Source: Salvelinus alpinus (taxonomy: Eukaryota > Chordata > Actinopteri > Salmoniformes > Salmonidae). Taken from it: DNA of 64,000 nt. The stretch covers positions 94,351,141-94,415,140 of the forward strand of contig NC_092091.1 of assembly GCF_045679555.1 (NCBI RefSeq), written 5' to 3'. Below the pieces are notes generated by a model. The model was not told where the DNA came from. It saw nothing but the letters and a program-made list of their open reading frames with translations, and made no database searches. Positions 29,334 to 64,000 of the stretch are shown piece after piece (within the stretch, counting starts at the first letter, position 1; the number at the start of each line of letters is the position of its first letter). Position numbers and translations under genes: made by a program.

Positions 29334-29507
29334 ACAGGGATGACTGTCCCTTAGACGGTAGGGGCGTGTCTGCAGACGGATCACTGGGCGTGGTTCCGGA
29401 GGAGAGGAAGAAACGTGGCGGAGCAGAACTGAGAGAGCTGTGGAGGAAGGCGGTCCTACAACAGATACTACTACTGAGAATGGAGAGAGAGAACCACAAG
29501 ATACAGG
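29334..29507 (+). CDS. tbc1d1: tbc1d1 internal exon: pre-TBC helical segment
   Basis: 174 nt after ctccatctcag; the first two bases complete a GAC codon with the g left by the exon at 9146-9273. It reads DRDDCPLDGRGVSADGSLG, then VVPEERKKRGGAELRELWRK and AVLQQILLLRMERENHKIQ, ending one base into a codon before gtaaca. ELRELW.KA.LQQILLLRMEREN matches mammalian TBC1D1 (ELRELWQKAILQQILLLRMEKEN). The acidic first half is variable. From 29463 its 3' end with the donor is copied about 90 times downstream; this first copy is taken as the exon because only it continues back into ELRELW. Confidence 0.93.
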
Positions 29508-32500
29508 GTAACACACAGATACTACTACTGAGAATGGAGAGAGAGGACAAGATACAGGGTAATACACAGATACTACTACTGAGAATGGAGAGAGAGGACA
29601 AGATACAGGGTAACACACAGATACTACTACTGAGAATGGAGAGAGAGAACAAGATACAGGGTAATACACAGATACTACTACTGAGAATGGAGAGAGGACA
29701 AGATACAGGGTAACACACAGATACTACTACTGAGAATGAGGAGAGAGAACCACAAGATACAGGGTAACACACAGATACTACTACTGAGAATGGAGAGAGA
29801 GAACAAGATACAGGGTAATACACAGATACTACTACTGAGAATGGAGAGAGAGAACAACAAGATACAGGGTAACACACAGATACTACTACTGAGAATGGAG
29901 AGAGAGGACAAGATACAGGTTAACACACAGATACTACTACTGAGAATGGAGAGAGAGGACAAGATACAGGGTAACACACAGATACTACTACTGAGAATGG
30001 AGAGAGAACAACAAGATACAGGGTAACACACAGATACTACTACTGAGAATGGAGAGAGAGGACAAGATACAGGGTAACACAGATACTACTACTGAGAATG
30101 GAGAGAGATAACAACAAGATACAGGGTAACACACAGATACTACTACTGAGAATGGAGAGAGAGAACAAGATACAGGGTAACACACAGATACTACTACTGA
30201 GAATGGAGAGAGAGGACAAGATACAGGATAACACACAGATACTACTACTGAGAATGGAGAGAGAGAACAACAAGATACAGGGTAACACACAGATACTACT
30301 ATTGAGAATGGAGAGAGAGGACAAGATACAGGATAACACACAGATACTACTACTGAGAATGGAGAGAGAGAACAAGATACAGGATAACACACAGATACTA
30401 CTATTGAGAATGGAGAGAGAGGACAAGATACAGGATAACACACAGATACTACTACTGAGAATGGAGAGAGAGAACAAGATACAGGGTAACACACAGATAC
30501 TACTACTGAGAATGGAGAGAGAGGACAAGATACAGGATAACACACAGATACTACTACTGAGAATGGAGAGAGAGGACAAGATACAGGATAACACACAGAT
30601 ACTACTACTGAGAATGGAGAGAGAGAACAAGATACAGGATAACACACAGATACTACTACTGAGAATTGAGAGAGAACAACAAGATACAGGATAACACACA
30701 GATACTACTACTGAGAATGGAGAGAGAGGACAAGATACAGGATAACACACAGATACTACTACTGAGAATGGAGAGAGAGGACAAGATACAGGGTAACACA
30801 CAGATACTACTACTGAGAATGGAGAGAGAGGACAAGATACAGGGTAACACACAGATACTACTACTGAGAATGGAGAGAGAGAACAACAAGATACAGGGTA
30901 ACACACAGATACTACTACTGAGAATGGAGAGATAGGACAAGATACAGGGTAACACACAGATACTACTACTGAGAATGGAGAGAGAGGACAAGATACAGGG
31001 TAACACACAGATACTACTACTGAGAATGGAGAGAGAACAACAAGATACAGGGTAACACACAGATACTACTACTGAGAATGGAGAGAGAGGACAAGATACA
31101 GGGTAACACACAGATACTACTACTGAGAATGGAGAGAGAGGACAAGATACAGGGTAACACACAGATACTACTACTGAGAATGGAGAGAGAACAAGATACA
31201 GGGTAACACACAGATACTACTACTGAGAATGGAGAGAGAGGACAAGATACAGGGTAACACACTGATACTACTACTGAGAATGGAGAGAGAGGACAAGATA
31301 CAGGGTAACACACAGATACTACTACTGAGAATGGAGAGAGAACAAGATACAGGGTAACACACAGATACTACTACTGAGAATGGAGAGAGAGAACAAGATA
31401 CAGGGTAACACACAGATACTACTACTGAGAATGGAGAGAGAGAACAAGATACAGGGTAACACACAGATACTACTACTGAGAATGGAGAGAGAGAACAAGA
31501 TACAGGGTAACACACAGATACTACTACTGAGAATGGAGAGAGAGGACAAGATACAGGGTAACACACAGATACTACTACTGAGAATGGAGAGAGAGGACAA
31601 GATACAGGGTAACACACAGATACTACTACTGAGAATGGAGAGAGGACAAGATACAGGGTAACACACAGATACTACTACTGAGAATGGAGAGAGAGAACAA
31701 GATACAGGGTAACACACAGATACTACTACTGAGAATGGAGAGAGAGAACAAGATACAGGGTAACACACAGATACTACTACTGAGAATGGAGAGAGAGAAC
31801 AAGATACAGGGTAACACACAGATACTACTACTGAGAATGGAGAGAGAGAACAAGATACAGGGTAACACACAGATACTACTACTGAGAATGGAGAGAGAGG
31901 ACAAGATACAGGGTAACACAGATACTACTACTGAGAATGGAGAGAGAGAACAAGATACAGGATAACACACAGATACTACTACTGAGAATGGAGAGAGAGA
32001 ACAAGATACAGGGTAACACACAGATACTACTACTGAGAATGGAGAGAGAGGACAAGATACAGGGTAACACAGATACTACTTCTGAGAATGGAGAGAGAGA
32101 ACAAGATACAGGGTAACACAGATACTACTACTGAGAATGGAGAGAGAGAACAAGATACAGGGTAACACACAGATACTACTACTGAGAATGGAGAGAGAGA
32201 ACAAGATACAGGGTAACACACAGATACTACTACTGAGAATGGAGAGAGAGAACAAGATACAGGGTAACACACAGATACTACTACTGAGAATGGAGAGAGA
32301 GAACAAGATACAGGGTAACACACAGATACTACTACTGAGAATGGAGAGAGAGAACAAGATACAGGGTAACACACAGATACTACTACTGAGAATGGAGAGA
32401 GAGAACAAGATACAGGGTAACACAGATTCTACTACTGAGAATGGAGAGAGAGGACAAGATACAGGGTAACACACAGATACTACTACTGAGAATGGAGAGA

Positions 32501-34013
32501 GAGGACAAGATACAGGGTAACACACAGATACTACTACTGAGAATGGAGAGAGAGGACAAGATACAGGGTAACACACAGATACTACTACTGAGAATGGAGA
32601 GAGAACAACAAGATACAGGGTAACACACAGATACTACTACTGAGAATGGAGAGAGGACAAGATACAGGATAACACACAGATACTACTACTGAGAATGGAG
32701 AGAGAGGACAAGATACAGGGTAACACAGATACTACTACTGAGAATGGAGAGAGAGAACAAGATACAGGGTAACACACAGATACTACTACTGAGAATGGAG
32801 AGAGAGGACAAGATACAGGGTAACACACTGATACTACTACTGAGAATGGAGAGAGAGGACAAGATACAGGGTAACACACAGATACTACTACTGAGAATGG
32901 AGAGAGAACAACAAGATACAGGGTAACACACAGATACTACTACTGAGAATGGAGAGAGAGAACAAGATACAGGATAACACACAGATACTACTACTGAGAA
33001 TGGAGAGAGAGAACAAGATACAGGGTAACACACAGATACTACTACTGAGAATGGAGAGAGAGGACAAGATACAGGGTAACACAGATACTACTACTGAGAA
33101 TGGAGAGAGGACAAGATACAGGGTAACACACAGATACTACTACTGAGAATGGAGAGAGAGGACAAGATACAGGGTAACACACAGATACTACTACTGAAAA
33201 TGGAGAGAGAGGACAAGATACAGGGTAACACAGAGATACTACTACTGAGAATGGAGAGAGAACAACAAGATACAGGGTAACACACAGATACTACTACTGA
33301 GAATGGAGAGAGAGGACAACAAGATACAGGGTAACACACAGATACTACTACTGAGAATGGAGAGAGAGAACAAGATACAGGATAACACACAGATAATACT
33401 ACTGAGAATGGAGAGAGAGGACAAGATACAGGATAACACACAGATACTACTACTGAGAATGGAGAGAGAGGACAAGATACAGGATAACACACAGATACTA
33501 CTACTGAGAATGGAGAGAGAGGACAAGATACAGGGTAACACACAGATACTACTACTGAGAATGGAGAGAGAGGACAAGATACAGGGTAACACACAGATAC
33601 TACTACTGAGAATGGAGAGAGAGGACAAGATACAGGGTAACACACAGATACTACTACTGAGAATGGAGAGAGAGAACAAGATACAGGGTAACACACAGAT
33701 ACTACTACTGAGAATGGAGAGAGAGGACAAGATACAGGGTAACACAGATACTACTACTGAGAATGGAGAGAGAGGACAAGATACAGGATAACACACAGAT
33801 ACTACTACTGAGAATGGAGAGAGAGGACAAGATACAGGGTAACACACAGATACTACTACTGAGAATGGAGAGAGAGGACAACAAGATACAGGATAACACA
33901 CAGATACTACTACTGAGAATGGAGAGAGAGAACAAGATACAGGGTAACACACAGATACTACTACTGAGAATGGAGAGAGAGAACAAGATACAGGGTAACA
34001 GATACTACGACTG
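29463..34013 (+). repeat. 51-bp exon-edge minisatellite, about 90 copies
   Basis: The last 45 nt of the exon 29334-29507 plus its donor and a few intron bases (agatactactactgagaatg to gatacagg, then gtaacacac) are repeated to 34013. Almost every unit keeps the exact cagg/gtaaca donor. The unit is 51 bp (17 codons), so the exon frame reads through as NTQILLLRMERENKIQG until short units shift it; the true frame stops at 29713. Variants: gaacaag/ggacaag, gaacaacaag, and 48-bp units lacking acac or gaga. It starts within the exon itself. Confidence 0.95.
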
Positions 34014-34500: not shown

Positions 34501-34559
34501 CGACGGTGTCTCAGGAGGAGTATTGTAATTAATATAATTAATCACACACAGAATATCAC

Positions 34560-35869: not shown

Positions 35870-36019
35870 CGTCGGAGAGTAAACGCTTGCGTCTGGACTA
35901 TGAAGAGATAACTCCCTGTCTGAAGGACGTCACGCTGGTCTGGGAGAGCATGCTGGGAACACAGGCCAGGTCGAAGGTCAAGTTCAACAGCGACACTGTC
36001 CACGCTGCTGTCGGACAAG
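35870..36019 (+). CDS. tbc1d1: tbc1d1 internal exon: LDYEEITPCLK segment
   Basis: 150 nt between tctgcgtag and gtaatc. The first two bases complete an Ala codon; the exon reads ASESKRLRLDYEEITPCLK, then DVTLVWESMLGTQARSKVKF and NSDTVHAAVGQ, ending one base into a Gly codon. LDYEEITPCLK.VT.VW..ML and the VGQG end match mammalian TBC1D1 and lead into the TBC domain. Between the previous exon's KIQ and KRLRLDYEE there are only ASES, about four residues fewer than the mammalian protein as I recall it. Polypyrimidine support for this acceptor is weaker than for the other exons. Confidence 0.92.
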
Positions 36020-36023
36020 GTAA

Positions 36024-40404: not shown

Positions 40405-41142
40405 TGTCTCTCTCTCTCCACCCCCCCTCCCCCATCTCGCACTCCTCTCCCTCCCCCATCCCCCCATCTCTCTCTCCCTCCCCCCTCTCTCTCTCGCTCC
40501 CCCCTGTCTCTCCCACTCTCTCCCTCCCCCCTCCCCCCTGTCTCTCCCACTCTCTCCCTCCCCATCCCCCCCTCTCTCCATCCCTCATCTCTCTCCCTCC
40601 CCCCTCTCTCCCACTCTCTCTCCCCCCTCCCTCTCTCACCCTCCCCATCCCCCTCTCTCTCTCTCCCCCCTCCCTCTCTCACCCTCTCTCTCCCTCCCCA
40701 TCCCCCCTCTCTCTCTCCCTCCCCCTCCCCCCTCTCTCTCTCCCTCCCCCGTCTCTCCCACTCTCTCCCTCCCCCATCCCCCCCTCTCTCTCTCCCCCCT
40801 CCCTCTCTCACCCTCTCTCTCCCCCCTCCCTCTCTCACCCTCTCTCTCCCTCCCCACCCCCCCTCTCTCTCCCTCCCCCGTCTCTCCCACTCTCTCCCTC
40901 CCCCACCCCCCCTCTCTCTCTCCCTCCCCCCCTCCCCCCACTCCATCTCTCTCCATCTCTCCCCCCCTCCCTCCATCCCTCCCTCTCTCTCCCTCCCCCC
41001 ATCTCTCCCCCCTCCCCCTCCCTCTCTCCATCTCTCCATCTCCCCCCCTCCCTCTCTCCACCCCCCCCCTCCCTCTCTCCACCTCTCCATCCCCTCTCCC
41101 TCTCTCTCCCTCCCTCCATCTCTCCCTCTCCCCCCTCCCCAG
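40405..41142 (+). repeat. 740-bp C-rich polypyrimidine tract ending in an acceptor
   Basis: C/T-only apart from scattered G and A in catctctc, gtctctccca and ctcaccctc blocks. It ends at ccctccccag, the acceptor of the exon at 41143. It keeps false long open frames on both strands. Confidence 0.9.
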
Positions 41143-41301
41143 GAGTTCCTCGGCAGTACAGAGGAGAGGTGTGGAAGTTACTGTCAGAGCAGTTTCTGTT
41201 GAGACAAACGCTTCCTGTCAGACTTCCAGCCAACAACAGGCCTTATAAGGAGCTGCTGAAACAGCTGACCTCACAGCAGCACGCCATCCTCATCGACCTG
41301 G
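41143..41301 (+). CDS. tbc1d1: tbc1d1 exon: start of the TBC Rab-GAP domain
   Basis: 159 nt from ccctccccag to gtgaga. The first two bases complete Gly; it reads GVPRQYRGEVWKLLSEQFLL, RQTLPVRLPANNRPYKELLK and QLTSQQHAILIDL, ending one base into the next Gly codon. RQYRGEVW is TBC motif A, which opens the catalytic domain. ILIDL with the following G and R forms the IxxDxxR arginine-finger motif; the Arg lies in the next exon. YKELLKQLTSQQHAILIDLG is, as recalled, identical to mammalian TBC1D1. The last 22 nt and the donor are copied many times downstream. Confidence 0.95.
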
Positions 41302-43986
41302 GTGAGACCCTACACCCTACATACTACACCCTGCACACTACACACTACACCCTACACACTACACACTACACACTACACCCTACAGCACGCCATCCTCATC
41401 GACCTGGGTGAGACCCTACACCCTACACACTACACCCTACACACTACACACTACACACTACATACTACACCCTACACCCTACAGCACGCCATCCTCATCG
41501 ACCTGGGTGAGACCCTACACCCTACACCCTACACACTACACACTACACACAACACCCTACACACTACATACTACACCCTACACCCTACAGCACGCCATCC
41601 TCATCGACCTGGGTGAGACCCTACACCCTACACACTACATACTACACCCTACACACTACATACTACACCCTACAGCACGCCATCCTCATCGACCTGGGTG
41701 AGACCCTGTACCCTACTCACTACACACTACACCCTGCACCCTACAGCACGCCATCCTCATCGACCTGGGTGAGACCCTGTACCCTACTCACTACACACTA
41801 CACACTACACCCTGCACCCTACAGCACGCCATCCTCATCGACCTGGGTGAGACCCTGTACCCTACTCACTACACACTACACCCTGCACCCTACAGCACGC
41901 CATCCTCATCGACCTGGGTGAGACCCTGTACCCTACTCACTACACACTACACCCTGCACCCTACAGCACGCCATCTTAATCGACCTGGGTGAGACCCTGT
42001 ACCCTACTCACTACACACTACACCCTGCACCCTATAGCACGCCATCCTCATCGACCTGGGTGAGACCCTGTACCCTACTCACTACACACTACACCCTGCA
42101 CCCTACAGCACGCCATCCTCATCGACCTGGGTGAGACCCTGTACCCTACTCACTACACACTACACACTACACCCTGCACCCTACAGCACGCCATCCTCAT
42201 CGACCTGGGTGAGACCCTGTACCCTACTCACTACACACTACACACTACACCCTGCACCCTACAGCACACCATCCTCATCGACCTGGGTGAGACCCTGTAC
42301 CCTACTCACTACACACTACACCCTACACACTACATACTACACCCTACACCCTACAGCACGCCATCCTCATCGACCTGGGTGAGACCCTACACCCTACACA
42401 CTACATACTACACCCTACACACTACATACTACACCCTACAGCACGCCATCCTCATCGACCTGGGTGAGACCCTACACCCTACATACTACACCCTGCACCC
42501 TACACCCTGCACACTACACACTACACCCTACACACTACACCCTACACACTACACCCTACACACTACACACTACAGCACGCCATCCTCATCGACCTGGGTG
42601 AGACCCTACACCCTACATACTACACCCTGCACCCTACACACTACACCCTGCACCCTACAGCACACCATCCTCATCGACCTGGGTGAGACCCTGTACCCTA
42701 CTCACTACACACTACACCCTGCACCCTACAGCACGCCATCCTCATCGACCTGGGTGAGACCCTGTACCCTACTCACTACACACTACACACTACACCCTGC
42801 ACCCTACAGCACGCCATCCTCATCGACCTGGGTGAGACCCTGTACCCTACTCACTACACACTACACACTACACCCTGCACCCTACAGCACACCATCCTCA
42901 TCGACCTGGGTGAGACCCTGTACCCTACTCACTACACACTACACCCTGCACCCTACAGCACGCCATCCTCATCGACCTGGGTGAGACCCTGTACCCTACT
43001 CACTACACACTACACCCTGCACCCTATAGCACGCCATCCTCATCGACCTGGGTGAGACCCTGTACCCTACTCACTACACACTACACCCTACACCCTACAG
43101 CACGCCATCCTCATCGACCTGGGTGAGACCCTGTACCCTACTCACTACACACTACACACTACACCCTGCACCCTACAGCACGCCATCCTCATCGACCTGG
43201 GTGAGACCCTGTACCCTACTCACTACACACTACACCCTGCACCCTACAGCACACCATCCTCATCGACCTGGGTGAGACCCTGTACCCTACTCACTACACA
43301 CTACACACTACACCCTGCACCCTACAGCACGCCATCCTCATCGACCTGGGTGAGACCCTGTACCCTACTCACTACACACTACACACTACACACTACACCC
43401 TACATACTACACCCTGCACCCTACACACTACATACTACACCCTGCACCCTACACACTACACCATGCACCCTACACCCTGTACCCTACTCACTACACCCTA
43501 CACACTACACCCTACACACTACGCCCTACATACTACACCCTGCACCCTACACACTACACCATGCACCCTACACCCTACACCCTGTACACTACATACTACA
43601 CCTTACACACTACACACTACACCCTACACACTACACCCTACACACTACACCCTACAGCACGCCATCCTCATCGACCTGGGTGAGACCCTACACACTACAC
43701 CCTACACACTACACACTACACCCTATACACTACACACTACAGCACGCCATCCTCATCGACCTGGGTGAGACCCTACATACTACACCCTGCACACTACACA
43801 CTATACCCTGTACCCTACACACTACACCCTACACCCTATAGCACGCCATCCTCATCGACCTGGGTGAGACCCTACACACTACACCCTACACCCTATACAC
43901 TACATACTACACCCTACATCCTATACACTACACACTGCACCCTACACCCTACAGCACGCCATCTTCATCGACCTGGGTGAGACCCT
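41279..43986 (+). repeat. exon-edge minisatellite with variable 70-105-bp units, about 30 copies
   Basis: The exon's last 22-23 nt (agcacgccatcctcatcgac, ctgg) and donor gtgagacc recur about 29 times after the true exon end, separated by variable numbers of ctacaccctacacacta blocks. Each copy is preceded by ccctacag or ccctatag, so a copy also has an acceptor-like CAG before it and could act as a 22-nt pseudo-exon. Two intron forms exist: gtgagaccctacacc (41300-41700, 42380-42600, 43680 on) and gtgagaccctgtacc (41700-42300, 42690-43360). One copy reads ttaatcgacc (about 41975). Confidence 0.93.
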
Positions 43987-44395
43987 ACACACTGCACCCT
44001 ACACACTGCACCCTACACACTGCACCCTAGTCCCTACACACTGCACCCTACACACTACACACTGCACCCTAGTCCCTACACACTACACCCTACACACTAC
44101 CCACTCTACACACTACGCACTATACCCTACACACTGCACCCTACACACTACACACTGCACCCTAGTCCCTACACACTACACCCTACACCCCCTACACACT
44201 ACGCACTATACCCTACACACTGCACACTACCCTACACACTGCACCCTAGTCCCTACACCCTACACACTACGCACTATACCCTAGACACTGCACACTACCC
44301 TACACACTGCACCCTAGTCCCTACACACTGCACACTACCCACACTACGCACTACACTACACACACCGACACGCTCACACACACACACACTACACA
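43987..44395. repeat. decayed ctacacactgcaccc repeats
   Basis: Continuation of the spacer part of the preceding array (ctacacactgcaccctagtc and relatives) without the exon-derived segment, ending in a short CA run. Around 44396-44522 an imperfect 80-bp duplication holds ttactgttgacgaatgc twice. Confidence 0.85.
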
Positions 44396-44522
44396 CTTCC
44401 TCCTTACTGTTGACGAATGCCTGACTGAGTGATGTTAACCTGGTTTAACTTGAAACATACACACTTCCTGACATATTACTGTTGACGAATGCTTAATGGA
44501 GTGTGATGTTATCAGTCACCTA

Positions 44523-47190
44523 ACCTCATTTAACCTGAAACCTTGTCCTCGTTGAACCTGAAACCTTGTCCTCGTTGAACCTGAAACCTTGTCCTCGTTT
44601 AATAACCTGAAACCGTGTCCTCGTTTAATAACCTGAAACCGTGTCCTCGTTGAACCTGAAACCTTGTCCTCGTTTAATAACCTGAAACCGTGTCCTCGTT
44701 TAATAACCTGAAACCGTGTCCTCGTTTAATAACCTGAAACCGTGTCCTCGTTGAACCTGAAACCTTGTCCTCGTTTAATAACCTGAAACCGTGTCCTCGT
44801 TTAATAACCTGAAACCGTGTCCTCGTTGAACCTGAAACCGTGTCCTCGTTGAACCTGAAACCTTGTCCTCGTTGAACCTGAAACCTTGTCCTCGTTTAAC
44901 CTGAAACCTTGTCCTCGTTGAACCTGAAACCTTGTCCTCGTTTAACCCGGAAACTTGTCCTCGTTTAACCCGGAAACTTGTCCTCGTTTAACCTGAAACC
45001 TTGTCCTCGTTTAACCTGAAACCTTGTCCTCGTTTAACCCTGAAACTTTGTCCTCGTTTAACCTGAAACCTTGTCCTCGTTTAACCTGAAACCGTGTCCT
45101 CGTTTAACCTGAAACCTTGTCCTCGTTTAACCTGAAACCGTGTCCTCGTTTAACCTGAAACCTTGTCCTCGTTTAACCTGAAACCTTGTCCTCGTTTAAC
45201 CTGAAACCGTGTCCTCGTTTAACCTGAAACCTTGTCCTCGTTTAACCTGAAACCGTGTCCTCGTTTAACCTGAAACCTTGTCCTCGTTTAACCCTGAAAC
45301 TTTGTCCTCGTTTAACCTGAAACCTTGTCCTCGTTTAACCTGAAACCTTGTCCTCGTTTAACCTGAAACCTTGTCCTCGTTGAATAACCTGAAACCGTGT
45401 CCTCGTTGAACCTGAAACCTTGTCCTCGTTTAACCTGAAACCGTGTCCTCGTTTAATAACCTGAAACCGTGTCCTCGTTTAACCTGAAACCTTGTCCTCG
45501 TTTAACCTGAAACCTTGTCCTCGTTTAACCTGAAACCTTGTCCTCGTTTAACCTGAAACCGTGTCCTCGTTTAACCTGAAACCTTGTCCTCGTTTAACTT
45601 CTCACGAGTCAGCAACCCTGATCCGGTAGCACCCCCCAACTCACCCCACTGATTAGCACAGCTAGCATAGCGTCACAAGTAACTTGTAGCATCTAAATAT
45701 CATTAAATCACAAGTCCAAGACACCAGATGAAAGATACAGGTCTTGTGAATAAAGCCACCATTTCAGATTTTTAAAATGTTTTACAGGGAAGACAGAATA
45801 TGTAAATCTATTAGCTAACCACGTTAGCGGAGGACACGATATTTTTACCAGGCAGATTCGGCTAGGCGCCCACGTCCAGTTCACATGCACAACAGATATG
45901 ATATAAAATCGTAAATTGGGTCTTACTATGGCTGATCTTTCATCAGAATGTTGATCAAAGTGTCCTTTGTCAAGATGAGTCGTTGGTTCCGTTCAGAAAT
46001 GTTCCTTTCTCACTCCATTTAGCACAGGTACCGGTCGAGTGGCACGTATTTCTCAAACGATACTAAAATCTAACAACTGAACACCGCAAAACTCCCTAAA
46101 AAAATCAAATAATCTGATTAAACTATATTGAAAAAACATACATTACGATGATCTGGTCACATGTATCAAACAAACTTCGACACGGAGATAATAATGGCCG
46201 CACAACACAAGAAAAACGTAGCTCAAATTCCATCCAATCGAGAACCGGAAGTTGTCGGTCATGCCAAAGATTTTGCTCTCATTTCACGTCAGTCCCAGAT
46301 AGACAAGAAATTTTTCCTCTGACGTCCTCTAGACACCCAGAGGAAGGCCAGTGAGTTGTGTTTCGGGTCATAGGAGGCATGACCATATATAGGCAGAGCT
46401 TTGAAGCCAGCACAAAACATCTTGATTTTATGTTCTTGGTCATGGAAAGTGCTGTGAAATGACTTCTGTATCACTCAGAGACAAAATTGAAACGGATTTA
46501 GAAACTAGAGATTGTCTTCTTTCCAATGGTATGATTCATATGCATATAGTAAGAGCAATGATTGAATAAGAGGCAGTTTAATCTGTAGAGCAAATTATGC
46601 TAATGCGAAAATATTACACCCTGTATTCTCAAGAGGTTAACCTGAAACCATGTCCTCGTTTAACCTGAAACCTTGTCCTCGTTTAACCTGAAACCTTGTC
46701 CTCGTTTAACCCGGAAACTTGTCCTCGTTTAACCTGAAACCGTGTCCTCGTTTATCCTGAAACCTTGTCCTCGTTTAACCTGAAACCGTGTCCTCGTTTA
46801 ACCTGAAACCTTGTCCTCGTTTAACCTGAAACCTTGTCCTCGTTTAACCTGAAACCATGTCCTCGTTTAACCTGAAACCTTGTCCTCGTTTAACCCGGAA
46901 ACTTGTCCTCGTTTAACCTGAAACCTTGTCCTCGTTTAACCTGAAACCATGTCCTCGTTTAACCTGAAACCGTGTCCTCGTTTAACCTGAAACCTTGTCC
47001 TCGTTTAACCTGAAACCTTGTCCTCGTTTAACCTGAAACCTTGTCCTCGTTTAACCTGAAACTTGTCCTCGTTTAACCTGAAACCTTGTCCTCGTTTAAC
47101 CTGAAACCTTGTCCTCGTTTAACCTGAAACCGTGTCCTCGTTTAACCCGGAAACTTGTCCTCGTTTAACCTGAAACCTTGTCCTCATTTA
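44523..47190. repeat. 23-bp minisatellite, interrupted by a 1.04-kb element
   Basis: Units of 23 bp, cctgaaaccttgtcctcgtt plus taa or gaa, with 26-bp taataa variants concentrated at 44595-44830. It occupies 44523-45597 and resumes at 46637-47190 with the same unit, so it was one array before the element at 45598-46636 was inserted. Confidence 0.95.
45598..46636. mobile_element. 1039-bp TTAA-flanked element inserted in the 23-bp array
   Basis: TTAA occurs immediately on both sides (45594-45597 and 46637-46640) and belongs to the array unit cgtttaacc, as expected for insertion at TTAA. The ends are weakly inverted: cttctcacgag on the left, and cctcttgagaa when the right end is reverse-complemented. 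The interior contains acaagtccaagacaccagat and gatttttaaaatgttttaca, which I recall from an abundant interspersed repeat of salmonid genomes. No transposase is seen; the open frames inside are short. The TTAA target suggests a piggyBac-type non-autonomous element. Confidence 0.8.
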
Positions 47191-49150: not shown

Positions 49151-49288
49151 GGTTACCGTTGAAAGGTGACCCTGCTTTGCATGTTCAGCTCTGAAAGGGG
49201 AGGAGGGGGCAGACAGGACATGGAAAGACGAGGGTTTTGTTTACTCAGTGTATAACAACTATTTATCTGTCTCTGTCTCTCTCCCCTG
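49151..49288. other. short non-repetitive intron segment
   Basis: Ordinary sequence between the 38-bp array and the CT tract; no feature is recognised. Confidence 0.65.
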
Positions 49289-49377
<89 letters not shown>

Positions 49378-49561
49378 ATGTCTTTCTCTCTGTCTATGTT
49401 TCTCTCTCTCTCTCTCTCCTCTGTCTCTCTCTCTCTGTCTCTGTCTCCTTTCTCTCTCTGTCTCTCTCTGTCTCTGTCTCCTTTCTCTGTCTCTCTCTGT
49501 CTCTGTCTCTCTCTGTCTCTGTCTCTCTGTCTCTCTCCTCTCTCTCCTCTCTCTCTCTCAG
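49289..49561 (+). repeat. CT microsatellite / polypyrimidine tract ending in an acceptor
   Basis: (CT)n of about 85 bp then ctctgtctc variants, ending at ctctctctcag, the acceptor of the exon at 49562. Confidence 0.92.
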
Positions 49562-49662
49562 GTCGTACCTTTCCTACTCATCCTTATTTCCAGGCTCAGT
49601 TGGGATCTGGTCAGCTGTCTCTCTATAACCTCCTGAAGGCCTACTCTCTACTGGACCCAGAG
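49562..49662 (+). CDS. tbc1d1: tbc1d1 exon: TBC arginine finger
   Basis: 101 nt from ctctctctcag to gtacac. The first two bases complete Gly; it reads [20 protein letters not shown] then [14 protein letters not shown] and ends on a codon border. The Arg codon at 49564-49566 is the catalytic arginine finger of the IxxDxxR motif begun in the previous exon (ILIDLG). It matches mammalian TBC1D1 [20 protein letters not shown] and [14 protein letters not shown], from memory. The finger being intact argues for an active GAP. The last 22 nt with the donor are repeated 11 more times downstream. Confidence 0.95.
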
Positions 49663-50085
49663 GTACACACATTACACCTACTCTCTACTGGACCCAGAGG
49701 TACACACATTACACCTACTCTCTACTGGACCCAGAGGTACACACATTACACCTACTCTCTACTGGACCCAGAGGTACACACATTACACCTACTCTCTACT
49801 GGACCCCGAGGTACACATATTACACCTACTCTCTACTGGACCCAGAGGTACACACATTACACCTACTCTCTACTGGACCCAGAGGTACACACATTACACC
49901 TACTCTCTACTGGACCCAGAGGTACACACATTACACCTACTCTCTACTGGACCCAGAGGTACACACATTACACCTACTCTCTACTGGACCCAGAGGTACA
50001 CACATTACACCTACTCTCTACTGGACCCAGAGGTACACACATTACACCTACTCTCTACTGGACCCAGAGGTACACACATTACACA
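49641..50085 (+). repeat. 37-bp exon-edge minisatellite, 12 copies
   Basis: The exon end ctactctctactggacccag plus ag and donor gtacacacattacac repeat at 49641, 49678 and so on to about 50085; the first copy is the true exon end. One copy has cccgagg and gtacacatatt (about 49800). The 37-bp unit is open in all three + frames, so read-through passes SLLDPEV, STGPRG and YWTQRY versions in turn. CA-rich repeats follow. Confidence 0.95.
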
Positions 50086-52262: not shown

Positions 52263-52406
52263 GTGGGATACTGTCAGGGTCTCAGCTTCCTAGCAGGAGT
52301 GTTGTTGTTACACATGGCAGAAGAGGATGCCTTCAACATGCTCAAGTTCCTCATGTATCATATGGGGCTCCGCAAGCAGTACAGACCTGACATGATTATA
52401 CTACAG
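52263..52406 (+). CDS. tbc1d1: tbc1d1 exon: TBC glutamine finger
   Basis: 144 nt (48 codons, phase 0 on both sides) from ttctctccag to gtaaaa. It reads [40 protein letters not shown] and [12 protein letters not shown] holds the glutamine finger of the TBC dual-finger mechanism (Gln codon 52275-52277). It matches mammalian [20 protein letters not shown] and [15 protein letters not shown] closely (from memory). The final 34 nt and the donor are repeated about 185 times downstream; this copy is the exon since only it continues back into [12 protein letters not shown]. Confidence 0.95.
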
Positions 52407-55400
52407 GTAAAACACCAAGCAGTACAGACCTGACATGATTATACTACAGGTAAAACACCAAGCAGTACAGAGCTGACATGATTATACTACAGGTAAAACA
52501 CCAAGCAGTACAGACCTGACATGATTATACTACAGGGAAAACACCAAGCAGTACAGAGCTGACATGATTATACTACAGGTAAAACACCAAGCAGTACAGA
52601 CCTGACATGATTATACTACAGGTAAAACACCAAGCAGTACAGAGCTGACATGATTATACTACAGGTAAAACACCAAGCAGTACAGACCTGACATGATTAT
52701 ACTACAGGTAAAACACCAAGCAGTACAGAGCTGACATGATTATACTACAGGTAAAACACCAAGCAGTACAGACCTGACATGATTATACTACAGGTAAAAC
52801 ACCAAGCAGTACAGACCTGACATGATTATACTACAGGTAAAACACCAAGCAGTACAGACCTGACATGATTATACTACAGGTAACACACCAAGCAGTACAG
52901 ACCAGACATGATTATACTACAGGTAAAACACCAAGCAGTACAGACCTGACATGATTATACTACAGGTAAAACACCAAGCAGTACAGAGCTGACATGATTA
53001 TACTACAGGTAAAACACCAAGCAGTACAGACCTGACATGATTATACTACAGGTAAAACACCAAGCAGTACAGACCTGACATGATTATACTACAGGTAAAA
53101 CACCAAGCAGTACAGACCTGACATGATTATACTACAGGTAACACACCAAGCAGTACAGACCAGACATGATTATACTACAGGTAAAACACCAAGCAGTACA
53201 GACCTGACATGATTATACTACAGGTAACACACCAAGCAGTACAGACATGATTATACTACAGGTAACACACCAAGCAGTACAGACCTGACATGATTATACT
53301 ACAGGTACCAAGCAGTACAGACCTGACATGATTATACTACAGGTACCAAGCAGTACAGACCTGACATGATTATACTACAGGTACCAAGCAGTACAGACCT
53401 GACATGATTATACTACAGGTACCAAGCAGTACAGACCTGACATGATTATACTACAGGTACCAAGCAGTACAGACCTGACATGATTATACTACAGGTAACA
53501 CACCAAGCAGTACAGACCTGACATGATTATACTACAGGTAAAACACCAAGCAGTACAGACCTGACATGATTATACTACAGGTAAAACACCAAGCAGTACA
53601 GACCTGACATGATTATACTACAGGTAAAACACCAAGCAGTACAGACCTGACATGATTATACTACAGGTAAAACACCAAGCAGTAGAGACCTGACATGATT
53701 ATACTACAGGTAAAACACCAAGCAGTACAGACCTGACATGATTATACTACAGGTAAAACACCAAGCAGTACAGACCTGACATGATTATACTACAGGTAAA
53801 ACACCAAGCAGTAGAGACCTGACATGATTATACTACAGGTAAAACACCAAGCAGTACAGACCTGACATGATTATACTACAGGTAACACACCAAGCAGTAC
53901 AGACCTGACATGATTATACTACAGGTAACACACCAAGCAGTACAGACCTGACATGATTATACTACAGGTAAAACACCAAGCAGTACAGACCTGACATGAT
54001 TATACTACAGGTAAAACACCAAGCAGTACAGACCTGACATGATTATACTACAGGTAAAACACCAAGCAGTACAGACCTGACATGATTATACTACAGGTAC
54101 CAAGCAGTACAGACCTGACATGATTATACTACAGGTAAAACACCAAGCAGTACAGACCTGACATGATTATACTACAGGTAACACACCAAGCAGTACAGAC
54201 CTGACATGATTATACTACAGGTAACACACCAAGCAGTACAGACCTGACATGATTATACTACAGGTAAAACACCAAGCAGTACAGACCTGACATGATTATA
54301 CTACAGGTAACACACCAAGCAGTACAGACCTGACATGATTATACTACAGGTAACACACCAAGCAGTACAGACCTGACATGATTATACTACAGGTAAAACA
54401 CCAAGCAGTACAGACCTGACATGATTATACTACAGGTAAAACACCAAGCAGTACAGACCTGACATGATTATACTACAGGTAAAACACCAAGCAGTACAGA
54501 CATGACATTATTATACTACAGGTAACACACCAAGCAGTACAGACCTGACATTATTATACTACAGGTAAAACACCAAGCAGTACAGACCTGACATGATTAT
54601 ACTACAGGTAAAACACCAAGCAGTACAGACCTGACATGATTATACTACAGGTAAAACACCAAGCAGTACAGAGCTGACATGATTATACTACAGGTAACAC
54701 ACCAAGCAGTACAGACCTGACATGATTATACTACAGGTAACACACCAAGCAGTACAGACCTGACATGATTATACTACAGGTAACACACCAAGCAGTACAG
54801 ACCTGACATGATTATACTACAGGTAAAACACCAAGCAGTACAGACCTGACATGATTATACTACAGGTAAAACACCAAGCAGTACAGACCTGACATGATTA
54901 TACTACAGGTAAAACACCAAGCAGTACAGACCTGACATGATTATACTACAGGTAAAACACCAAGCAGTACAGACCTGACATGATTATACTACAGGTACCA
55001 AGCAGTACAGACCTGACATGATTATACTACAGGTAAAACACCAAGCAGTACAGACCTGACATGATTATACTACAGGTAACACACCAAGCAGTACAGACCT
55101 GACATGATTATACTACAGGTAACACACCAAGCAGTACAGACCTGACATGATTATACTACAGGTAAAACACCAAGCAGTACAGACCTGACATGATTATACT
55201 ACAGGTAACACACCAAGCAGTACAGACCTGACATGATTATACTACAGGTAACACACCAAGCAGTACAGACCTGACATGATTATACTACAGGTAAAACACC
55301 AAGCAGTACAGACCTGACATGATTATACTACAGGTAAAACACCAAGCAGTACAGACCTGACATGATTATACTACAGGTAAAACACCAAGCAGTACAGACA

Positions 55401-58400
55401 TGACATTATTATACTACAGGTAACACACCAAGCAGTACAGACCTGACATTATTATACTACAGGTAAAACACCAAGCAGTACAGACCTGACATGATTATAC
55501 TACAGGTAAAACACCAAGCAGTACAGACCTGACATGATTATACTACAGGTAAAACACCAAGCAGTACAGAGCTGACATGATTATACTACAGGTAACACAC
55601 CAAGCAGTACAGACCTGACATGATTATACTACAGGTACCAAGCAGTACAGACCTGACATGATTATACTACAGGTAACACACCAAGCAGTACAGAGCTGAC
55701 ATGATTATACTACAGGTAAAACACCAAGCAGTACAGACCTGACATGATTATACTACAGGTAAAACACCAAGCAGTACAGACCTGACATGATTATACTACA
55801 GGTAAAACACCAAGAAGTACAGACCTGACATGATTATACTACAGGTAAAACACCAAGCAGTACAGACATGACATGATTATACTACAGGTAAAACACCAAG
55901 CAGTACAGACCTGACATGATTATACTACAGGTAAAACACCAAGCAGTACAGACCTGACATGATTATACTACAGGTAAAACACCAAGCAGTACAGACCAGA
56001 CATGATTATACTACAGGTAAAACACCAAGCAGTACAGACCTGACATGATTATACTACAGGTAAAACACCAAGCAGTACAGACCTGACATGATTATACTAC
56101 AGGTAAAACACCAAGCAGTACAGACCTGACATGATTATACTACAGGTAAAACACCAAGCAGTACAGACCTGACATGATTATACTACAGGTAAAACACCAA
56201 GCAGTACAGACCTGACATGATTATACTACAGGTAAAACACCAAGCAGTACAGACCTGACATGATTATACTACAGGTAAAACACCAAGCAGTACAGACCTG
56301 ACATGATTATACTACAGGTAAAACACCAAGCAGTACAGACCTGACATGATTATACTACAGGTAAAACACCAAGCAGTACAGACCTGACATGATTATACTA
56401 CAGGTACCAAGCAGTACAGACCTGACATGATTATACTACAGGTAACACACCAAGCAGTACAGACCTGACATGATTATACTACAGGTAACACACCAAGCAG
56501 TACAGACATGATTATACTACAGGTAACACACCAAGCAGTACAGACCTGACATGATTATACTACAGGTACCAAGCAGTACAGACCTGACATGATTATACTA
56601 CAGGTACCAAGCAGTACAGACCTGACATGATTATACTACAGGTACCAAGCAGTACAGACCTGACATGATTATACTACAGGTACCAAGCAGTACAGACCTG
56701 ACATGATTATACTACAGGTACCAAGCAGTACAGACCTGACATGATTATACTACAGGTACCAAGCAGTACAGACCTGACATGATTATACTACAGGTACCAA
56801 GCAGTAGAGACCTGACATGATTATACTACAGGTAAAACACCAAGCAGTACAGACCTGACATGATTATACTACAGGTAAAACACCAAGCAGTACAGACCTG
56901 ACATGATTATACTACAGGTACCAAGCAGTAGAGACCTGACATGATTATACTACAGGTAAAACACCAAGCAGTACAGACCTGACATGATTATACTACAGGT
57001 AACACACCAAGCAGTACAGACCTGACATGATTATACTACAGGTAAAACACCAAGCAGTACAGACCTGACATGATTATACTACAGGTAAAACACCAAGCAG
57101 TACAGACCTGACATGATTATACTACAGGTAAAACACCAAGCAGTACAGACCTGACATGATTATACTACAGGTAAAACACCAAGCAGTACAGACCTGACAT
57201 GATTATACTACAGGTAAAACACCAAGCAGTACAGACCTGACATGATTATACTACAGGTAAAACACCAAGCAGTACAGACCTGACATGATTATACTACAGG
57301 TAAAACACCAAGCAGTACAGACCTGACATGATTATACTACAGGTAAAACACCAAGCAGTACAGACCTGACATGATTATACTACAGGTACCAAGCAGTACA
57401 GACCTGACATGATTATACTACAGGTAAAACACCAAGCAGTACAGACCTGACATGATTATACTACAGGTAACACACCAAGCAGTACAGACCTGACATGATT
57501 ATACTACAGGTAAAACACCAAGCAGTACAGACATGACATGATTATACTACAGGTAACACACCAAGCAGTACAGACCTGACATGATTATACTACAGGTAAC
57601 ACACCAAGCAGTACAGACCTGACATGATTATACTACAGGTAACACACCAAGCAGTACAGACCTGACATGATTATACTACAGGTAACACACCAAGCAGTAC
57701 AGACCTGACATGATTATACTACAGGTAACACACCAAGCAGTACAGACCTGACATGATTATACTACAGGTAAAACACCAAGCAATACAGAGCTGACATGAT
57801 TATACTACAGGTAAAACACCAAGCAGTACAGACCTGACATGATTATACTACAGGTAAAACACCAAGCAGTACAGACATGATTATACTACAGGTAAAACAC
57901 CAAGCAGTACAGAGCTGACATGATTATACTACAGGTAACACACCAAGCAGTACAGACCTGACATGATTATACTACAGGTAACACACCAAGCAGTACAGAC
58001 CTGACATGATTATACTACAGGTAAAACACCAAGCAGTACAGACCTGACATGATTATACTACAGGTAAAACACCAAGCAGTACAGAGCTGACATGATTATA
58101 CTACAGGTAACACACCAAGCAGTACAGACCTGACATGATTATACTACAGGTACCAAGCAGTACAGACCTGACATGATTATACTACAGGTAACACACCAAG
58201 CAGTACAGAGCTGACATGATTATACTACAGGTAAAACACCAAGCAGTACAGACCTGACATGATTATACTACAGGTAAAACACCAAGCAGTACAGACCTGA
58301 CATGATTATACTACAGGTACCAAGCAGTACAGACCTGACATGATTATACTACAGGTACCAAGCAGTACAGACCTGACATGATTATACTACAGGTAAAACA

Positions 58401-60309
58401 CCAAGCAGTACAGACCTGACATGATTATACTACAGGTAACACACCAAGCAGTACAGACCTGACATGATTATACTACAGGTACCAAGCAGTACAGACCTGA
58501 CATGGTTATACTACAGGTAAAACACCAAGCAGTACAGACCTGACATGATTATACTACAGGTAAAACACCAAGCAGTACAGACCTGACATGATTATACTAC
58601 AGGTAAAACACCAAGCAGTACAGACCTGACATGATTATACTACAGGTAAAACACCAAGCAGTACAGACCTGACATGATTATACTACAGGTAAAACACCAA
58701 GCAGTACAGACCTGACATGATTATACTACAGGTAACACACCAAGCAGTACAGACCTGACATGATTATACTACAGGTAAAACACCAAGCAGTACAGACCTG
58801 ACATGATTATACTACAGGTAAAACACCAAGCAGTACAGACCTGACATGATTATACTACAGGTAACACACCAAGCAGTACAGACCTGACATGATTATACTA
58901 CAGGTAAAACACCAAGCAGTACAGACCTGACATGATTATACTACAGGTAACACACCAAGCAGTACAGACCTGACATGATTATACTACAGGTAACACACCA
59001 AGCAGTACAGACCTGACATGATTATACTACAGGTAAAACACCAAGCAGTACAGACCTGACATGATTATACTACAGGTAAAACACCAAGCAGTACAGACCT
59101 GACATGATTATACTACAGGTAAAACACCAAGCAGTACAGACCTGACATGATTATACTACAGGTAAAACACCAAGCAGTACAGACCTGACATGATTATACT
59201 ACAGGTAACACACCAAGCAGTACAGACCTGACATGATTATACTACAGGTAAAACACCAAGCAGTACAGACCTGACATGATTATACTACAGGTAAAACACC
59301 AAGCAGTACAGACCTGACATGATTATACTACAGGTAAAACACCAAGCAGTACAGACCTGACATGATTATACTACAGGTAAAACACCAAGCAGTACAGACC
59401 TGACATGATTATACTACAGGTAAAACACCAAGCAGTACAGACCTGACATGATTATACTACAGGTAAAACACCAAGCAGTACAGACCTGACATGATTATAC
59501 TACAGGTACCAAGCAGTACAGACCTGACATGATTATACTACAGGTAAAACACCAAGCAGTACAGACCTGACATGATTATACTACAGGTAACACACCAAGC
59601 AGTACAGACCTGACATGATTATACTACAGGTAAAACACCAAGCAGTACAGACATGACATGATTATACTACAGGTAACACACCAAGCAGTACAGACCTGAC
59701 ATGATTATACTACAGGTAACACACCAAGCAGTACAGACCTGACATGATTATACTACAGGTAACACACCAAGCAGTACAGACCTGACATGATTATACTACA
59801 GGTAACACACCAAGCAGTACAGACCTGACATGATTATACTACAGGTAACACACCAAGCAGTACAGACCTGACATGATTATACTACAGGTAACACACCAAG
59901 CAGTACAGACCTGACATGATTATACTACAGGTAAAACACCAAGCAGTACAGACCTGACATGATTATACTACAGGTAACACACCAAGCAGTACAGACCTGA
60001 CATGATTATGCTACAGGTAACACACCAAGGAGTACAGACCTGATTATACTACAGGTAAAACACCAAGCAGTACAGACCTGACATGATTATACTACAGGTA
60101 ACACACCAAGCAGTACAGACCTGACATGATTATACTACAGGTAACACACCAAGCAGTACAGACCTGACATGATTATACTACAGGTAAAACACCAAGCAGT
60201 ACAGACCTGACATGATTATACTACAGGTAAAACACCAAGCAGTACAGAGCTGACATGATTATACTACAGGTAACACACCAAGCAGTACAGACCTGACATG
60301 ATTATACTC
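52373..60309 (+). repeat. 43-bp exon-edge minisatellite, about 185-190 copies
   Basis: The exon's last 34 nt (caagcagtacagacctgaca, tgattatactacag) and donor gtaaaacac or gtaacacac form a 43-bp unit repeated for 7.9 kb. Short units read cagg-taccaag (36 bp), and a few lack gacctgac. Rare variants recur at distance (gacatgacattattata near 54504 and 55400), so blocks of about 0.9 kb are duplicated. Nearly every unit keeps cag/gtaa, giving about 185 donors with the authentic exon context. Read from the exon frame, the first unit already meets TGA (acc tga), so use of a downstream donor would truncate the protein. Confidence 0.96.
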
Positions 60310-60317
60310 AGTGTATG

Positions 60318-61335
60318 CCCCCCCCCCCCCCCCCCCCACCAGATCCAGATGTACCAGCTGTCCCGTCTCCTCCATGAGTACCACAGAGACCTCTAACCCC
60401 CCCCCCCCCCCCCACCAGATCCAGATGTACCAGCTGTCCCATCTCCTCCATGACTACCACAGAGACCTCTAACCCCCCCCCCCCCCCCCCACCAGATCCA
60501 GATGTACCAGCTGTCCCGTCTCCTCCATGACTACCACAGAGACCTCTAACCCCCCCCCCACCAGATCCAGATGTACCAGCTGTCCCGTCTCCTCCATGAC
60601 TACCACAGAGACCTCTAACCCCCCCCCCCCCCCCCCCCACCAGATCCAGATGTACCAGCTGTCCCGTCTCCTCCATGACTACCACAGAGACCTCTAACCC
60701 CCCCCCCCCCCCCCACCAGATCCAGATGTACCAGCTGTCCCGTCTCCTCCATGACTACCACAGAGACCTCTAACCCCCCCCCCCCCCCCCCCACCAGATC
60801 CAGATGTACCAGCTGTCCCGTCTCCTCCATGACTACCACAGAGACCTCTAACCCCCCCCCCCCCCCCCCCCACCAGATCCAGATGTACCAGCTGTCCCGT
60901 CTCCTCCATGACTACCACAGAGACCTCTAACCCCCCCCCCCCCCCCCCCACCAGATCCAGATGTACCAGCTGTCCCGTCTCCTCCATGACTACCACAGAG
61001 ACCTCTAACCCCCCCCCCCCCCCCACCAGATCCAGATGTACCAGCTGTCCCGTCTCCTCCATGACTACCACAGAGACCTCTAACCCCCCCCCCCCCCCCC
61101 CCCACCAGATCCAGATGTACCAGCTGTCCCGTCTCCTCCATGACTACCACAGAGACCTCTAACCCCCCCCCACCAGATCCAGATGTACCAGCTGTCCCGT
61201 CTCCTCCATGACTACCACAGAGACCTCTAACCCCCCCCCCCCCCCCCCCCCCCACCAGATCCAGATGTACCAGCTGTCCCGTCTCCTCCATGACTACCAC
61301 AGAGACCTCTAACCCCCCCCCCCCCCCCCCACCAG
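60318..61335 (+). repeat. 66-85-bp exon-edge array: 13 copies of acceptor plus exon 5' end
   Basis: Thirteen truncated copies of poly-C, caccag and the first 50 nt of the exon at 61336 (atccagatgtaccagctgtc to gacctcta) start at 60343, 60417, 60495 and so on. Each breaks after acctcta and returns to poly-C, creating an in-frame TAA (gac ctc taa). The first copies carry gagtaccac and cccatctcc changes; the rest match the exon. Unit length varies only with the C run (about 8-22). Confidence 0.96.
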
Positions 61336-61495
61336 ATCCAGATGTACCAGCTGTCCCGTCTCCTCCATGACTACCACAGAGACCTCTATGTCCATCTGGA
61401 ACAGCATGAGATAGGACCGTCTCTCTACGCTGCTCCCTGGTTCCTCACGGCCTTCGCCTCGCACTTCCCTCTGGGCTTCGTAGCCAGGGTGTTTG
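61336..61495 (+). CDS. tbc1d1: tbc1d1 exon: TBC domain, [18 protein letters not shown] segment
   Basis: 160 nt after poly-C caccag, ending gtgtttg before gtaagt. It starts on a codon border and ends one base into a codon. It reads [40 protein letters not shown] and [13 protein letters not shown]; all three blocks match mammalian TBC1D1 with few changes (from memory). [10 protein letters not shown] is a conserved TBC motif. This is the only one of 14 copies of its 5' end that continues past GACCTCTA into TGTCCATCTG, so the last copy is the real exon. Its 3' end also seeds an array. The rest of the TBC domain lies beyond the window. Confidence 0.95.
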
Positions 61496-64000
61496 GTAAG
61501 TTACCTCTAGGTTACCTGGCCAGGGTGGCCTTCGCCTCGCACTTCCCTCTGGGCTTCGTAGCCAGGGTGTTTGGTAAGTTACCTCTAGGTTACCTGGCCA
61601 GGGTGTCCTTCGCCTCGCACTTCCCTCTGGGCTTCGTAGCCAGGGTGTTTGGTAAGTTACCTCTAGGTTACCTGGCCAGGGTGTTTGGTAAGTTACCTCT
61701 AGGTTACCTGGCCAGGGTGGTTGGTTAGTTACCTCTAGGTTACCTGGCCAGGGTGTTTGGTAAGTTACCTCTAGGTTACCTGGCCAGGGTGTTTGGTTAG
61801 TTACCTCTAGGTTACCTGGCCAGGGTGGTTGGTAAGTTACCTCTGGGCTTCGTAGCCAGAGTGTTTGGTAAGTTACCTCTAGGCTTCGTAGCCAGGGTGT
61901 TTGGTAAGTTACCTCTAGGTTACCTGGCCAGGGTGTTTGGTAAGTTACCTCTAGGTTACCTGGCCAGGGTGTTTGGTTAGTTACCTCTAGGTTACCTGGC
62001 CAGGGTGGTTGGTAAGTTACCTCTAGGTTACCTGGCCAGGGTGTTTGGTAAGTTACCTCTAGGTTACCTGGCCAGGGTGGTTAGTTACCTCTAGGTTACC
62101 TGGCCAGGGTGTTTGGTTAGTTACCTCTAGGTTACCTGGCCAGGGTGGTTGGTTAGTTACCTCTAGGTTACCTGGCCAGGGTGGTTGGTAAGTTACCTCT
62201 AGGCTTTGTAGCCAGGGTGGTTGTTAAGTTACCTCTAGGTTACCTGGCCAGGGTGTTTGGTAAGTTACCTCTAGGTTACCTGGCCAGGGTGTTTGGTAAG
62301 TTACCTCTAGGTTACCTGGCCAGGGTGTTTGGTTAGTTACCTCTAGGTTACCTGACCAGGGTGGTTGGTAAGTTACCTCTAGGTTACCTGGCCAGGGTGT
62401 TTGGTAAGTTACCTCTAGGTTACCTGGCCAGGGTGTTTGGTTAGTTACCTCTAGGTTACCTGGCCAGGGTGTTTGGTTAGTTACCTCTAGGTTACCTGGT
62501 CAGGGTGTTTGGTAAGTTACCTCTAGGCTTTGTAGCCAGGGTGTTTGGTTAGTTACCTCTAGGTTACCTGGTCAGGGTGTTTGGTAAGTTACCTCTAGGT
62601 TACCTGGCCAGGGTGTTTGGTTAGTTACCTCTAGGCTTCGTAGCCAGGGTGGTTAAGTTACCTCTAGGTTACCTGGCCAGGGTGGTTGGTAAGTTACCTC
62701 TAGGTTACCTGGCCAGGTTGTTTTGTAAGTTACCTCTAGGTTACCTGGCCAGGGTGTTTGTTTAGTTACCTCTAGGTTACCTGGCCAGGGTGGTTGGTTA
62801 GTTACCTCTAGGTTACCTGGCCAGGGTGGTTAGTTACCTCTAGGTTACCTGGTCAGGGTGTTTGGTTAGTTGCCTCTAGGTTACCTGGCCAGGGTGGTTG
62901 GTAAGTTACCTCTGGGCTTCGTAGCCAGAGTGTTTGGTAAGTTACTTCTAGGTTACCTGGTCAGGGTGTTTGGTTAGTTACCTCTAGGTTACCTGGCCAG
63001 GGTGGTTGGTTAGTTACCTCTAGGTTACCTGGTCAGGGTGGTTGGTTAGTTACCTCTAGGTTACCTGGCCAGGGTGTTTGGTAAGTTACCTCTAGGTTAC
63101 CTGGCCAGGGTGGTTGGTTAGTTACCTCTAGGTTACCTGGCCAGGGTGGTTGGTTAGTTACCTCTAGGTTACCTGGCCAGGGTGTTTGGTAAGTTACCTC
63201 TAGGTTACCTGGTCAGGGTGGTTGGTTAGTTACCTCTAGGTTACCTGGCCAGGGTGTTTGGTAAGTTACCTCTAGGTTACCTGACCAGGGTGTTTGGTTA
63301 GTTACCTCTAGGCTTCGTAGCCAGGGTGTTTGGTTAGTTACCTCTAGGTTACCTGGCCAGGGTGGTTGGTTAGTTACCTCTAGGTTACCTGGCCAGGGTG
63401 GTTAGTTACCTCTAGGTTACCTGGTCAGGGTGTTTGGTTAGTTGCCTCTAGGTTACCTGGCCAGGGTGGTTGGTAAGTTACCTCTGGGCTTCGTAGCCAG
63501 AGTGTTTGGTAAGTTACCTCTAGGCTTCGTAGCCAGGGTGTTTGGTAAGTTACCTCTAGGTTACCTGGCCAGGGTGTTTGGTAAGTTACCTCTAGGTTAC
63601 CTGGCCAGGGTGTTTGGTTAGTTACCTCTAGGTTACCTGACCAGGGTGGTTGGTAAGTTACCTCTAGGTTACCTGGCCAGGGTGTTTGGTAAGTTACCTC
63701 TAGGTTACCTGGCCAGGGTGTTTGGTTAGTTACCTCTAGGTTACCTGGCCAGGGTGTTTGGTTAGTTACCTCTAGGTTACCTGGTCAGGGTGTTTGGTAA
63801 GTTACCTCTAGGCTTTGTAGCCAGGGTGTTTGGTTAGTTACCTCTAGGTTACCTGGTCAGGGTGTTTGGTAAGTTACCTCTAGGTTACCTGGCCAGGGTG
63901 TTTGGTTAGTTACCTCTAGGCTTCGTAGCCAGGGTGGTTAAGTTACCTCTAGGTTACCTGGCCAGGGTGGTTGGTAAGTTACCTCTAGGTTACCTGGCCA
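61442..64000 (+). repeat. exon-edge array: 78-bp units then about 65 units of 36 bp
   Basis: The exon's 3' end is first repeated as two further 78-bp units (gccttcgcctcgcacttccc through gtgtttg and gtaagttacctctagg), then as 36-bp units gtgtttggtaagttacctct with aggttacctggccagg. Some units keep the exon-like ggcttcgtagccagg in place of ggttacctggccagg, showing that this part too derives from the exon end. Donors alternate between ggtaagt and ggttagt. Both unit lengths are multiples of three and read-through stays open as [12 protein letters not shown] to 61728. Block duplication is evident: 61840-62020 resembles 63470-63660 at about 1.64 kb distance. The array leaves the window. Confidence 0.95.

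Follow-up and report, generated by a model that had tools for sequence, protein, structure and literature searches.

Why do minisatellites within one gene carry copies of the exon edges that they adjoin? The question is raised by a stretch of 64,000 nucleotides (nt) from Salvelinus alpinus (NC_092091.1, positions 94,351,141 to 94,415,140 of the forward strand), here called the window, which holds ten exons of the gene tbc1d1. The original prediction, made from the letters, was that exon borders in this gene are preferred seeds of tandem repeats. We found that border-straddling arrays are real. We favor, with a probability of about 0.65, the reading that the short introns of fish tbc1d1 were inflated by many independent minisatellites whose birth was indifferent to exon borders, combined with selection and the survival of straddlers.

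On the basis of reading frames and splice sites, the ten exons of this vertebrate TBC1D1 gene were placed on the + strand of the window, each flanked by AG and GT. The protein encoded by exons E-J matched human TBC1D1 (PDB 3qye) with E 6.7e-128, covering exons F-J, whereas TBC1D4 (3qyb) was a poorer match (E 1.4e-104). The exons are as follows.

5779-6110, + strand: exon A, from AG/GT flanks and reading frame
6549-6653, + strand: exon B, from AG/GT flanks and reading frame
8764-8871, + strand: exon C, from AG/GT flanks and reading frame
9146-9273, + strand: exon D, from AG/GT flanks and reading frame
29334-29507, + strand: exon E, from AG/GT flanks and reading frame
35870-36019, + strand: exon F, from AG/GT flanks and a match to the human TBC1D1 RabGAP domain (3qye)
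41143-41301, + strand: exon G, flanks and 3qye match as for F
49562-49662, + strand: exon H, flanks and 3qye match as for F
52263-52406, + strand: exon I, flanks and 3qye match as for F
61336-61495, + strand: exon J, flanks and 3qye match as for F

According to Tandem Repeats Finder (TRF), tandem repeats made up 90.1% of the window bases, and repeats with units of at least 7 base pairs (bp) 88.2%; about 26 minisatellites of unlike units fill most of this one gene region (1-64000). A search with each of the ten exons against the window by the Basic Local Alignment Search Tool (BLAST; E up to 0.01) returned non-self copies of exon edges only, at 7 of the 20 borders. The affected borders comprised five of ten donors (E, G, H, I and J, ending at 29507, 41301, 49662, 52406 and 61495) and two of ten acceptors (D and J, starting at 9146 and 61336). 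These are exactly the seven borders that had been named, and six of them lie within the interval to which the pattern had been assigned (29334-64000), the acceptor at 9146 falling outside it. The tandem copies lay on the intron side, adjoining an exon that is intact by sequence, and the units of the seven arrays were, as claimed, unrelated to one another in length and sequence. Non-self matches numbered 3 for exon D, 88 for E, 29 for G, 11 for H, 186 for I and 26 for J; no such match came from exons A, B, C or F in the same search. The seven straddling arrays are listed here.

8997-9185, + strand: acceptor array of exon D, 3.1 copies of a unit of ~62 bp, 40 nt exonic (exon nt 1-40), from TRF and exon copies
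29461-34000, + strand: donor array of exon E, ~89 copies of a 51-bp unit (49-54 bp), 47 nt exonic (exon nt 128-174)
41277-44397, + strand: compound donor array of exon G, 25 nt of exon (nt 135-159) plus GTGAGACC plus 7-bp sub-repeats of the CTACACC type
49640-50084, + strand: donor array of exon H, 12 copies of a 37-bp unit, 23 nt exonic (exon nt 79-101)
52373-60308, + strand: donor array of exon I, ~187 copies of a 43-bp unit (38 bp in 27/187 spacings), 34 nt exonic (exon nt 111-144)
60320-61388, + strand: acceptor array of exon J, a poly-C tract, CCAG and the first 53 nt of the exon (nt 1-53), unit 68-82 bp
61483-64000, + strand: donor array of exon J, a 36-bp unit in 60/67 spacings (also 32, 33 and 78 bp), 13-47 nt exonic (exon nt 114-160), extending past the window end

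The exon G array consists of near-constant exon-tail segments separated by a variable number of the 7-bp repeats, with spacings of 71+7n bp in 29/29 cases, and the acceptor array of exon J has 14 anchors, the native one included. At exon I, the 188 units fell into 20 types that followed one another irregularly, and into two length classes of 38 and 43 bp; from such variants, the growth of the arrays looks like ordinary minisatellite turnover. An eighth candidate, at acceptor F, was rejected by eye and not counted: its 104-bp unit is similar to the final bases of the intron but does not include the acceptor.

The copied edges of exons G, H, I and J encode residues that align with human TBC1D1, including ARVF, with one difference in one stretch; therefore the exon is older than its array and is the source of it. 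The direction from exon to array that had been proposed is thus shown for these four exons, as judged from conserved residues. For exons D and E, whose copied stretches are not covered by the structural alignment, the same direction is suggested by the exon being coding. GT was kept in 360 of 384 donor copies over the five arrays (E 70/89, G 29/29, H 11/11 non-native copies, I 186/187, J 64/68), and where it was lost it had mostly become AT (17 copies of the exon E array). We considered selection against decoy donors and rejected it, the copies giving no consistent signal. A translated exon E array was likewise rejected, since 20 of the 88 distances between its units are not divisible by three and open frames on the + strand break up there. 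Most spacings there are multiples of three, so that the first decoy donors, if used, would add in-frame codons, while those 20 break the frame.

Do these arrays imply that borders are preferred? The scoring against random positions that had been suggested was carried out on this window. TRF rows were merged by hand (17623-19575 with 19547-24929; the two halves of a 23-bp array with each other; and overlapping rows), and each array was collapsed to one unit. This gave 26 minisatellites, among them two borderline arrays that were retained (a CT-rich 20-bp one at 25055 and a CA-rich one at 50085). Excluded were 7 arrays of dinucleotides and 6 that were polypyrimidine- or purine-rich. A 1,038-bp insert of the 23-bp array was removed from the collapsed length of its intron. 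Seven of the 26 straddle a border and the other 19 touch no exon. The complete introns collapse to 46-1828 bp, seven of the nine to 46-373 bp; the intron between exons I and J, which carries two straddlers, shrinks from 8,929 to 46 bp. Because the collapsed introns are so short, random seeds of ~40 bp should often straddle borders. When every array was given a random position within the collapsed intron to which it belongs (per-intron null), 4.7-6.2 straddlers were expected against the 7 observed (P 0.12-0.40). Here, the intron after exon J, which runs off the window, was assumed to be 100, 250 or 800 bp long, and in all nulls the ranges span two cutoffs for straddling, at least 1 and at least 10 exonic bases.

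Other features of the window agree with this result. Intron-internal arrays occurred at a similar density in short introns (6 in 1,307 bp, 4.6 per kilobase) and in long ones (13 in 3,611 bp, 3.6 per kilobase), which is what indiscriminate birth predicts. No array lay wholly within an exon, against 4.3-5.0 expected at the intron-internal rate (P 0.007-0.014), and the exonic share of the seven straddling units (0.35-0.87) was compatible with uniform placement in a test of low power (Kolmogorov-Smirnov P 0.28, n=7). Together, the similar densities, the absence of exon-internal arrays and the offsets fit indiscriminate birth followed by selection and straddler survival. The straddling share was 5/11 in short and 1/14 in long introns (Fisher P 0.056); we do not use this difference as support, because constant seeding per border predicts the same.

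We propose the following course of events. New tandem duplications of ~20-100 bp would arise regardless of exon borders, probably by slippage or unequal exchange between short direct repeats, and, as many collapsed introns are no longer than one or a few units, a large number of these seeds would straddle a border. Duplications lying entirely within an exon would be purged, presumably by selection. Straddling ones would be tolerated, as the outermost copy still supplies an intact exon and splice site and splicing would proceed normally; they would then expand on the intron side through ordinary minisatellite turnover. DNA hairpins were rejected as a common cause, the folds of 8 single units being unremarkable (z -1.05 to 0.59). 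A further idea is that the edges of exons serve as seeds that are protected and renewable: selection would keep one perfect unit at each border, and introns of repeat-prone genomes would inflate preferentially from exon edges. We regard this as doubtful. If it held, each true splice site would lie buried among intact copies, up to hundreds of them, which splicing would have to pass over.

Several observations weigh against birth indifferent to borders. The P value of the per-intron null falls as the introns lengthen. Lengthening each intron by 50, 100 or 200 bp lowered the expectation to 3.9-4.9 (P 0.05-0.16), 3.3-4.1 (P 0.025-0.08) and 2.6-3.3 (P 0.007-0.03) straddlers, respectively; scaling the introns by 1.5, 2 or 3 gave 3.7-4.6 (P 0.03-0.11), 3.1-3.8 (P 0.01-0.04) and 2.3-2.8 (P 0.002-0.007). 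When all arrays were dropped uniformly over all introns (global null), the expectation was 3.0-3.9 (P 0.02-0.08) for collapsed introns, 2.6-3.6 (P 0.01-0.05) after the addition of 50-100 bp and 1.6-2.1 (P 0.0006-0.002) for doubled introns. Predicting straddlers from the intron-internal array density, with a 42-bp unit and 0-100 bp added (internal-rate null), gave 2.2-3.5 against 7 (P 0.015-0.093), a ratio of 2.0-3.2. In these last two nulls the intron after exon J was set at 250 bp, and the internal-rate null used its donor side only. All of the P values were obtained post hoc, from the hand-merged list of 26 arrays. Moreover, an intron of 46 bp is shorter than vertebrate introns are known to be; therefore sequence has probably been lost from the collapsed introns, whose lengths are then lower bounds, and this favors an excess of straddlers. 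The compactness of the ancestral introns is itself taken from general background and from the collapsed lengths. The accessible part of PMC4122358 gives no teleost intron lengths.

Thus, for introns collapsed or up to 100 bp longer, the three nulls expected 2.2-6.2 straddlers of 26 (P 0.01-0.40), and for longer ancestral introns (200 bp added, doubled or tripled) 1.6-3.8 (P 0.0006-0.04). Adding the 6 excluded arrays to the per-intron null gave 2.5-7.0 of 32 (P 0.003-0.60 over all settings), so that all settings run span 1.6-7.0 expected against 7 observed (P 0.0006-0.60). Whether the straddlers are in excess turns on how long the ancestral introns were, and the window by itself does not give that length. 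The arrays themselves cannot be due to chance; a border preference could be. From this one window a preference of about threefold is possible, and so is none; the claim that borders are preferred seeds is neither shown nor excluded, even though the straddlers on which it was built are real.

A true preference of two- to threefold might come from the splice consensus (CAG|GT, or polypyrimidine-AG) or from border chromatin supplying seeding repeats or lesions. It would account for the ratio found with the internal-rate null, and 18 of the 20 borders have a tandem array, mini- or microsatellite, within 40 nt. However, CT and CA microsatellites near borders may stem from low-complexity splice tracts, and 19 of the 26 minisatellites avoid borders. 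The maximum-likelihood odds of preference were 2.1 (0.70-5.75) at collapsed lengths, with a confidence interval that contains 1, 2.7 (0.95-7.03) with 50 bp added and 3.3 (1.16-8.17) with 100 bp added, the lower bound exceeding 1 only in the last case. We consider such a preference unlikely.

A different possibility, termed here "immortal seeds", is that birth is unbiased and intronic units can be deleted while the selected exonic copy stays, so that border arrays regrow and accumulate. This would account for a modest excess together with uniform offsets, and the mean identity to the native copy does vary by array, from 92.5% (E) to 99.5% (H), as differing age or turnover would give. The distal half was slightly less exon-like than the proximal half in four of five donor arrays (proximal/distal identity E 0.928/0.923, G 0.991/0.988, I 0.984/0.976, J 0.951/0.938). 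However, these differences amount to only 0.3-1.3 points, partial last units add to the fall, and exon H is reversed (0.989/1.000); we judge this explanation very unlikely. That the arrays were inflated or created by misassembly is scarcely credible: the single gap in the window, 100 N at 1401-1500, does lie between two arrays, but many copy variants occur in irregular order, as at exon I, and the 1,038-bp insert interrupts the 23-bp array, although array copy numbers in the assembly could still be wrong.

The pattern, for which the original prediction knew no named mechanism, has already been called "mirages" in lancelets. In the accessible parts of PMC3087553 and PMC3902484, the same anatomy is described in Adh3, BflGb6, BflGb9, TnC and PGBD5 (TnC and PGBD5 added by PMC3902484), with units of 10-160 bp and AG/GT signals kept in many copies; the cause is termed unclear in that of PMC3087553. 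Like mirages, the arrays of tbc1d1 have units that span the exon-intron boundary (7/20), occur at both 5' and 3' borders and largely retain GT in their donor copies; copies of acceptors were observed as well. Unlike them, they belong to a vertebrate gene, affect seven borders of it and reach ~187 copies and 8 kilobases, whereas the lancelet clusters have 3 and 6 units (BflGb6) or 2-7 (PGBD5), according to the same portions. Boundary repeats are also found in human genes: minisatellite-type repeats, with units of 30 bp on average, vary across exon-intron boundaries of segmentally duplicated genes, where they change splicing and, in recent paralogs, give rise to introns (accessible part of PMC2812944), whereas in tbc1d1 the native exon appears intact and the copies are intron-side. 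We found no boundary-spanning minisatellite in a fish gene in the literature searched, whose coverage mostly excludes subscription journals, and the accessible parts of PMC3045353, PMC4394517, PMC9321927, PMC5628181 and PMC4039745 describe no boundary array. By their structure, the tbc1d1 arrays look like mirages, apparently a vertebrate case of a kind already named.

Intron gain through tandem duplication of AG/GT sites has reportedly been described by Rogers and by Gao and Lynch, as cited in PMC3087553; the duplicated segments of tbc1d1 also carry splice signals, but a new intron is not evident there. Taylor and Breden (2000, in the guppy) and Haber and Louis (1998) are said to have traced the origin of minisatellites to slippage at short direct repeats, either non-contiguous or flanking. 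As described in the accessible part of PMC3389668, the slipped-strand model involves incomplete terminal units and the Haber-Louis model flanking direct repeats. By eye, we saw incomplete terminal units in three of the seven arrays, those of D, E (~17 nt) and I (~30 nt); at exon D the terminal partial copy GGTAGCAGTGTGTGTG, near 8970, is present in both intron and exon. Elsewhere the array of G merges into its 7-bp repeats, H has no such unit, the donor array of J continues beyond the window and the acceptor of J shows a weak TATG match only.

Provided that its transcripts are spliced normally, this gene puts exon definition to a natural test, as the donor of exon I would be chosen beside ~186 downstream copies with exon context. 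How the true site is recognized among its copies is worth pursuing. Our reading also suggests that mirage minisatellites are no peculiarity of lancelets and are to be expected wherever frequent minisatellite birth meets compact introns. In addition, intron sliding and intron gain find raw material at this locus.

The remaining minisatellites lie inside introns, and with the same BLAST threshold we found none derived from any of the ten exons. Two entries illustrate them.

6693-8651, + strand: non-straddling intronic minisatellite, 45.7 copies of a 42-bp unit, 39 nt from donor B
9508-29161, + strand: seven non-straddling minisatellites in the 20-kilobase intron between exons D and E, which collapses to ~1.8 kilobases

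Within the latter intron, the 20-bp minisatellite at 25055-25823 (~38 copies) has a unit like a 3' splice site, pyrimidines followed by CAG. The non-repetitive insert of 1,038 bp (45599-46636) splits the 23-bp array at 44524-47190 and has TTAA at both edges, but the array unit itself holds TTAA; no inverted repeats were reported at the insert ends, and a piggyBac-type insertion is only a guess. Finally, CT-rich arrays stop 2-9 nt before the acceptors of exons A, B, C, G and H (4965-5769, 6392-6542, 8676-8758, 40408-41140 and 49266-49559, respectively), and are probably expanded polypyrimidine tracts.

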